A stretch of 64,000 nt of DNA from Miscanthus floridulus (Eukaryota; Streptophyta; Magnoliopsida; Poales; Poaceae). How positions within the stretch are numbered: position 1 is the first letter of the stretch; every line of letters begins with the position of its first letter. Positions 25,019-25,444 of this stretch are shown here, in pieces. Where the stretch lies: positions 120,883,856-120,947,855 of the forward strand of contig NC_089582.1 of assembly GCF_019320115.1 (NCBI RefSeq), in the 5' to 3' direction. Position numbers and translations under genes: made by a program. The notes beneath the pieces were generated by a model that had not been told where the DNA came from, did no database searches, and saw only the letters and a program-made list of their open reading frames with translations.

Positions 25019-25444
25019 ATGGCCCGCACGAAGCAGACCGCCCGTAAGTCCACCGGAGGAAGAGCACCTCGACGTCCGTTGGCCTTGAGGGAGCATCGCA
25101 CCACGGACACCTTCTTGAGCGAGTTTGGCATGCCGACTTTGCTTTGGAGAGTGCTCCATGATGTGGGGTACCCAGAGGGTCAAGAGCCGGTGTACTCTTG
25201 GAATGAGAACCAGTTAGCAGATGATGGACTTGCAGTGGTGGAGATCATGGTTCCTGCTCTCGGTAATGCTCCAGATTGGGATGGTTGGCATTTGGAGTTT
25301 GAGGGTCGTACTCCAGCTGAGGGTACAGAGGGAGCAGCCTTCCGTGTCATCAGGGACATTATGAGCAGATTTCCTAGTGAGCTTGCAGCAGCTCTAGCTG
25401 GTACTTTTCCTAGGGATGATCCTCGTGATGCCATTTGGGTTTAG
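25019..25444 (+). CDS. Extra Tekay ORF: histone H3 tail mimic plus unknown domain
   Basis: A 141-residue frame starts with [19 protein letters not shown]. Counting from the alanine after Met, residues 1-13, 15-17, 20, 21 and 26 are identical to histone H3. R2, K4, R8, K9, S10 and R17 are retained, while K14, K18 and K23 are all arginine and K27 is absent. From about residue 27 the histone match ends. No histone-fold helices follow; instead comes an unrecognised segment ([20 protein letters not shown], then a [15 protein letters not shown] region and [20 protein letters not shown]). It lies between the PBS and gag, on the sense strand. It ends at TAG 25442, but the same frame clearly continues to 26,008, so the true product was probably about 330 codons. 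The role is unknown; the tail suggests interaction with H3 writers or readers. Alternative: chance capture of an H3 exon start. Confidence 0.85.
   Translation: [141 protein letters not shown]

Follow-up and report, generated by a model that had tools for sequence, protein, structure and literature searches.

What is the tail of histone H3 doing at the start of an open reading frame that lies inside a retrotransposon, and is it kept there for a reason? The question is raised by the ORF at 25019..25444 on the forward strand of the window, the 64,000 nt stretch of Miscanthus floridulus DNA analysed here. The original prediction, that the first 17 residues after Met agree with H3 at 16 positions, holds on direct comparison. 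Up to residue 19 the window copy departs from H3 in that R replaces K14 and K18, and P replaces Q19. A phmmer search with the ORF returned 137 distinct matches among the PDB sequences at E ≤ 10, the best 60 of which are H3-type chains aligned within ORF residues 1–31, with a best E of 6.6e-6. A 45-row profile of the family matches PDB H3 over positions 1–24 (E 2.3e-8). When the first ten codons are written as a degenerate DNA pattern and up to 3 mismatches are allowed, the pattern occurs once in the window and in none of 100 shuffles. Chance resemblance is rejected on these E-values, profile and pattern counts.

In the best 60 of the 137 PDB matches the likeness to H3 stops by residue 31, and the ORF has no histone fold. 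The window ORF matches no Pfam family at E ≤ 1, and none of the 45 family members matches the Pfam Histone family. The ORF is therefore not a host H3 gene, as had been predicted and as the PDB matches, Pfam and the structure models bear out. A weak match to PF15715, the PCNA-associated factor histone-like domain, is given by three of the 45 family members, with a best E of 0.16; the start of this domain also resembles H3.

The extra ORF and its element

The tail is found on a retroelement protein, as was claimed for it, and the ORF that encodes it is an extra one, 5' of gag (ORF0). The features of the element and of ORF0 are as follows.

20179..20183, unstranded: target site duplication GAAAC, left copy, read from the flanks
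20184..24229, + strand: 5' LTR, TGTAACACCC...GTCACA, from self-blast
24232..24243, + strand: primer binding site TGGTATCAGAGC, from the sequence
24491..24496, + strand: candidate splice donor GTAAGT, the best score between 24231 and 26367 with a simple consensus
25017..25018, + strand: AG directly before the ORF0 ATG, candidate splice acceptor
25019..25444, + strand: N-terminal part of ORF0 that is open in the window copy, 141 aa, from the ORF list and translation
25022..25084, + strand: H3-like tail, residues 1–21 in H3 numbering, from phmmer, family profile, parsimony and codon comparison
25130..25405, + strand: predicted dsRBD-type fold, residues 38–129 counted from Met=1
25445..26008, + strand: rest of the ORF0 frame, with coiled-coil-like helices and an acidic end, containing stops in the window copy
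26368..27240, + strand: gag ORF, Pfam Retrotrans_gag 1.6e-18
27247..27747, + strand: zinc knuckle and aspartic protease part, a separate ORF in the window copy, Pfam zf-CCHC and RVP_2
28000..30903, + strand: RT, RNase H and integrase ORF, Pfam RVT_1 2e-35 and others
30715..30840, + strand: putative weak chromodomain at the C-terminal end of the integrase, with a Pfam Chromo E of 0.067 that falls short of the cut-off
30899..34946, + strand: 3' LTR, from self-blast
34947-34951, unstranded: target site duplication GAAAC, right copy, read from the flanks

The window element is a complete, young LTR element. Its LTRs, each about 4.05 kb and thus longer than 3 kb, are 98.5% identical over 4051 columns of the self-blast alignment (55 mismatches and 3 gap openings). 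With a substitution rate of 1.3e-8 per site and year, this divergence places the insertion about half a million years ago. The primer binding site TGGTATCAGAGC is presumably of the initiator tRNA-Met type. When the end of the integrase is compared with PDB sequences, the Clr4 chromodomain is matched at E 0.017, second behind an unrelated Csm5 match at 0.0052; the alignment runs through the central W, and the Y24 and Y48 positions appear by eye to be non-aromatic, like those of the group II chromodomains of PMC3350952.

A second, diverged element of the same kind is present at 968-3921 of the window, as three blocks with 66-73% DNA identity to the internal region; by spacing, its ORF0 would fall outside the window. 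ORFs on the minus strand at 19450-20019 and 34911-36253 flank the element under study and give the impression, from their translations, of pieces of plant DNA-transposon transposase. Since these lie on both sides, the element seems to be nested in an older DNA transposon.

ORF0 of this element looks like the known, unexplained ORF0 of grass Tekay-type (Retrosat2/RIRE3/RIRE8-like) elements, a clade name that rests here on element structure and on the original prediction. Grass Tekay chromoviruses with an ORF0 or 5' extra ORF are Retrosat2, RIRE3, RIRE8, FRetro3, maize Tekay and sorghum Sb7, and their ORF0s were compared at the level of published descriptions. According to passages of PMC3485330 and PMC11728184, these have a separate ORF 5' of gag and LTRs of about 3 kb or more, like the window element, in which ORF0 starts at 25019 and gag at 26368. 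The same passages give the named ORF0s an alpha/beta part and a long helix, features that the models predict for the ORF0 family studied here. The 10-bp LTR start of RIRE8 and Retrosat2 is given in part of PMC3485330 as TGTCACACCC, which marks these two families rather than the clade; TGTAACACCC of the window differs from it by one base.

ORF0 frame, upstream signals and predicted fold

The ORF0 frame runs past codon 141 to about 26008, with three in-frame TAG codons interrupting the window copy. Thirty loci were fetched, one of them the window's own, and ORF0 is uninterrupted at 329 aa in 18; public protein relatives reach 326 aa with ends made of coiled-coil-like and acidic parts. The 141-aa protein is rejected as a natural product, given the in-frame TAGs here and the intact 329-aa copies elsewhere in the genome. 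The 141-residue protein of the original prediction thus exists as an ORF, but as the shortened form of a frame of about 329 aa. The genome searched comprises 2.68 Gb in 2420 contigs, and a first look gave 8761 candidate ORF0 matches, at megabase coordinates on contigs C1-C19; these were found with tail-bearing queries, which favours tail-bearing copies. The best 150 of the 8761 all cover ORF0 residues 1-141 without stops. No ORF0 relative came from two scans of viral contigs and one scan of genome contigs. One locus, L073, derives from a deletion that joins the ORF0 frame directly to protease and RT, giving an open frame of 917 codons.

The sequence directly before the ORF0 ATG is CTACAG in 26 of the 30 loci and CTATAG in 4, including the window. 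CAG is found there in 32 of the 33 loci L048-L080 with a pattern that required CAG and the first codons, L061 being unmatched. All nine public protein calls that extend upstream of the ORF0 start have Q before the Met. A second in-frame gag ATG, at 26374, also directly follows a CAG. The AG before the ORF0 ATG (25018) and that before the inner gag ATG (26373) are positioned as if two candidate acceptors chose between ORF0 and gag. These positions make a splice model attractive, with the donor at 24491 and acceptors before both ATGs. A scan of the region, though, places the ORF0 acceptor 24th, and that of the inner gag ATG 10th, among 63 acceptor-like sites. A donor of the 24491 type was not found upstream of the copies of lineage B described below.

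Two AlphaFold2 models of ORF0 have an alpha-beta-beta-beta-alpha fold, with the tail at low pLDDT. The 50 structural matches listed for the first model are dsRBD-containing entries, and the leading matches of the second are likewise. Among those at the top are dsRBDs that bind protein, from TRBP, Loqs, Staufen, DRB7.2 and DCL4. The assignment of the fold is based on the AlphaFold2 models and VIA-align; Foldseek gave no match at E ≤ 0.001 in the PDB, where the best was DCL4 at E 0.034, or in its viral library. Compared with TRBP (dsRBD3), Loqs (dsRBD3), Staufen (dsRBD5), DRB7.2/DRB4 and DCL4 (dsRBD2), ORF0 has 9-19% identity and no sequence-family match. Pfam dsrm matches neither the window ORF nor any of the 45 family members. 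At the start of helix 2, none of 49 sequences has two or more K/R at the three positions of the KKxAK lysines. Because these usual RNA-contacting lysines are missing, the modelled domain is more likely to bind protein. The long helices that follow the fold in models of ORF0 relatives are probably dimerising.

Conservation of the tail and selection on its codons

Protein searches gave 156 matches, of which the best 120 were used, and 880 matches from 7982 scored candidates, again with the best 120 used. The resulting 187 relatives include 53 that reach at least 12 residues upstream of the domain anchor, 10 that start inside and 124 without the anchor. Among the 53 far-reaching relatives, 45 have the tail, P0170 has a degenerate tail, four begin in the linker (P0004, P0005, P0060 and P0133) and three have no tail. 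The tail-less proteins, P0172, P0177 and P0185, are 3 of the 49 that are informative. The first two start MA[TA]P[VA]GCENFL, and P0185 has the same domain behind another start. As relatives without the tail exist, it is not indispensable. P0110 has a tail-type N-terminus joined to the tail-less type of domain, the arrangement of which suggests that tails are exchanged by recombination.

A tree was built from the part after the tail for 47 sequences, these being the 45 tail-bearing relatives, P0170 and the window, with one row (P0131) having a shifted domain. On this tree the mean number of parsimony steps per column is 3.31 for residues 1-13, 7.36 for 14-24, 6.78 for 25-33, 4.18 for 34-61 and 7.92 for 62-86. 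K9 has no steps at all in the 47 sequences. The other H3 lysines have 5 (K4), 6 (K14), 11 (K18) and 6 (K23). For the remaining tail positions there is one step each at A1, G13 and P16 and two each at A7 and S10. Constraint is not confined to the surroundings of K9, since L20 has 0 steps while T6 has 4 and R8 has 6. The changes of R8 are mostly to H, C or W, the kind that CpG decay gives, and the invariance of K9 may be aided by a codon without CpG, unlike those of R2 and R8. Of the 47 sequences, 40 have R at the K14 position and 40 have R at that of K23. At K18, 32 have H and 10 have R, and at K4, 12 have R and one has W. In 13 of the 47, residues 1-23 contain no lysine but K9, and in 31 the only two are K4 and K9. 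Non-basic positions are kept as well: A1 in 46 of 47, T6 in 43, S10 in 45 and G13 in 46. As both Q5 and K4 vary among the tail-bearing sequences, readers of H3K4 are unlikely partners of the tail.

Nine relatives that carry the tail are just 38-66% identical to the window over residues 31-86, with 7-13 of 12-13 tail residues identical. The distant P0187 has all 13 of 13 tail residues in common with the window and 27 of 56 over residues 31-86; for P0130 these are 9 of 13 and 28 of 56.

Several lineages of ORF0 coexist in the M. floridulus genome. In lineage A, the first 25 residues are identical in 27 of the 30 loci. The A set is made up of all 18 intact copies among the 30 loci, with ORF0 starts located by a pattern of the first seven codons that lost none, and the B set of 18 stretches without stops, chosen by hand from the genome matches. 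Between them, tail codons 1-13 have a pS of 0.53 (5.8 of 11.0 sites) and a pN of 0.002 (0.1 of 28.0), for a corrected dN/dS of 0.002; the 324 A-B pairs amount in essence to a single comparison between two lineages, with 11 synonymous sites to draw on. Over codons 1-21 the pS is 0.58 (10.3 of 18.0), the pN 0.069 (3.1 of 45.0) and the corrected dN/dS 0.066. For the domain, taken as 99 codons from -4 to +94 around the anchor, these are 0.74 (51.1 of 68.8), 0.314 (71.6 of 228.2) and 0.113, with dS at 3.59 and thus near saturation. In intact lineages the tail is held more tightly than the folded domain. When 12 representatives are compared, decayed copies among them, the contrast is smaller, with pN/pS of 0.21 for codons 1-13, 0.57 for the linker and 0.33 for the domain, and corrected dN/dS of 0.148, 0.591 and 0.184. 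The tail is old in the family and under strong purifying selection at the protein level. Many copies with low dN/dS are what the original prediction had asked for as a check, and in this genome the result is positive.

Of 12 stretches fetched for host H3, 11 gave a start. These 11 genes have only 48-50 of 66 tail nucleotides in common with lineage A, on which recent conversion from H3 is rejected. Ten of the 11 begin with the same 20 nt as the lineage-A tail, and descent of the tail from an H3 gene therefore seems the likelier origin.

Possible roles of the tail

We put the probability at about 0.55 that the tail is an H3 mimic centred on K9, through which ORF0 would engage host writers or readers of H3K9 and act as an anti-silencing factor. 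Removal of the Met would leave a tail showing A1 to K9-S10 as H3 does. Such a tail could be methylated by plant H3K9 methyltransferases of the SUVH4/KYP type, bound by H3K9 readers, or both, and could serve as a decoy or a recruiting peptide. The pattern of conservation points to H3K9 enzymes and readers, rather than to acetylation or H3K4 readers, since K9 is invariant, A7 and S10 are kept, and K14, K18 and K23 are replaced by residues that cannot be acetylated. The long helices could present two or more disordered tails per complex, and the dsRBD-type fold would possibly interfere with DCL/DRB partners. The most economical role for ORF0 would be that of a nuclear decoy or recruiter blunting the H3K9-dependent silencing of the element. 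It is a more tentative suggestion that this could be the first TE protein to combine a dedicated full H3K9 tail mimic with a protein-binding fold of the Dicer-partner dsRBD type, and so to hit both arms of silencing. In a bolder form of this suggestion, the tail might also supply the ligand that is missing for the group II chromodomain of the element itself.

The rivals to an H3K9 mimic overlap with it and with each other, and the odds need not sum to one. One that hardly comes into consideration is that host H3 sequence was captured a single time or recently and has persisted through chance or gene conversion; the 20 nt match to host H3 genes would fit it, but the tail is present in the nine relatives whose residues 31-86 are so different from the window, and its synonymous sites are strongly diverged both between lineages and from host H3. 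As synonymous sites have diverged with nonsynonymous sites almost unchanged, the tail is neither a one-off nor recently copied. A one-off capture, which the original prediction had named as the case against it, is contradicted by the many copies, the several lineages and the synonymous divergence between these. It is also rather improbable that the tail, as the descendant of a captured H3 exon, is only a basic peptide for nuclear localisation or nucleic-acid binding. It is rich in Arg and Lys, nuclear localisation has been predicted for grass 5' extra-ORF proteins (part of PMC11728184), and L20 and P16 are as well kept as K9, showing that some conserved residues are not modification sites. A mere basic patch is nevertheless disfavoured because K9 is never R, unlike K14 and K23, and both the retention of the non-basic A1, T6, S10 and G13 and the lower rate of nonsynonymous change in codons 1-13 than in the folded domain count against it.

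Chromatin tethering is the main rival to a decoy role. The tail would then serve as a targeting ligand for a chromodomain, either that of host heterochromatin proteins or that of the element's integrase, and bring ORF0 or the integration complex to the right chromatin; we consider this unlikely. The putative weak C-terminal chromodomain encoded by the same element and the helices of ORF0 relatives, fit for dimerisation, are in keeping with tethering, as is the account in part of PMC3350952, in which group II plant-element chromodomains are without Y24 and in most cases Y48, and no factor interacting with them was found. Chromodomains of this group, however, are without cage residues for methyl-lysine, and sunflower Tekay groups 1 and 3 have no 5' extra ORF in the sections of PMC11728184 that describe them, so that integration needs no such ligand in general. 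Equally doubtful is that ORF0 works through its dsRBD-type fold as a suppressor of small-RNA silencing, with the tail in a secondary part such as phosphorylation- or degradation-based regulation, although this is compatible with an H3K9 mimic. Two models give the fold, and part of PMC11728184 proposes, from a weak structural match, that the Tekay proteins of maize and sorghum modulate RNA silencing; the missing KKxAK lysines, the lack of a Pfam dsrm match and a tail that changes less than the domain all speak against it.

Part of the system is already known. Hydrolase-type functions have been proposed for most grass extra ORFs (in part of PMC3485330), and PMC3485330 and PMC11728184 already describe the extra ORF and its resemblance to a DRBM. 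The word 'histone' is absent from the main texts, supplements aside, of PMC3485330, PMC11728184 and PMC7264820. A keyword search of open-access full texts, which does not extend to the older subscription papers on RIRE3, RIRE8 and extra ORFs, found no paper describing a retrotransposon protein with an H3 tail. The original prediction knew of no described retrotransposon function of this kind; this stands for the H3 tail in the open-access literature, but not for the extra ORF itself. What is new is the H3 tail, its K9-centred conservation and the selection on it, the ORF0 family and its DRBM-like look being known before.

The mimic in influenza NS1 is C-terminal and has the motif ARSK. NS1 and SARS-CoV-2 ORF8 (ARKS) are viral precedents for mimicry of the H3 tail and, like ORF0, have a short H3-like motif on the protein of a parasite (part of PMC10208167); the claim for ARKS in ORF8 is disputed in part of PMC10833455. 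ORF0 differs from these short motifs in having an N-terminal H3-like stretch of about 21 residues, in a retrotransposon family and under purifying selection. The VANC anti-silencing proteins of VANDAL DNA transposons bind DNA motifs of the element and, if the anti-silencing reading of ORF0 holds, would be like it as accessory transposon proteins against plant silencing; the sections of PMC12844716 that give this account do not mention an H3 tail. Geminivirus AC2 resembles the proposed ORF0 in that a plant parasite acts on H3K9 methylation, via KYP, yet it lowers KYP expression, and histone mimicry is not named in the portion of PMC4658475 concerned.

In the literature cited here, no function has been established for the extra ORF of grass Tekay elements, and a selected tail of the H3K9 type gives it a concrete biochemical hypothesis that can be tested. 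The tail also bears on what the chromodomains of plant retrotransposons bind, a question left by PMC3350952 in the part concerned. With K9 as the main lysine or the only one, it offers a natural H3 tail for probing plant heterochromatin. If the reading as an H3K9-type mimic is true, histone mimicry would extend from viruses to retrotransposons.
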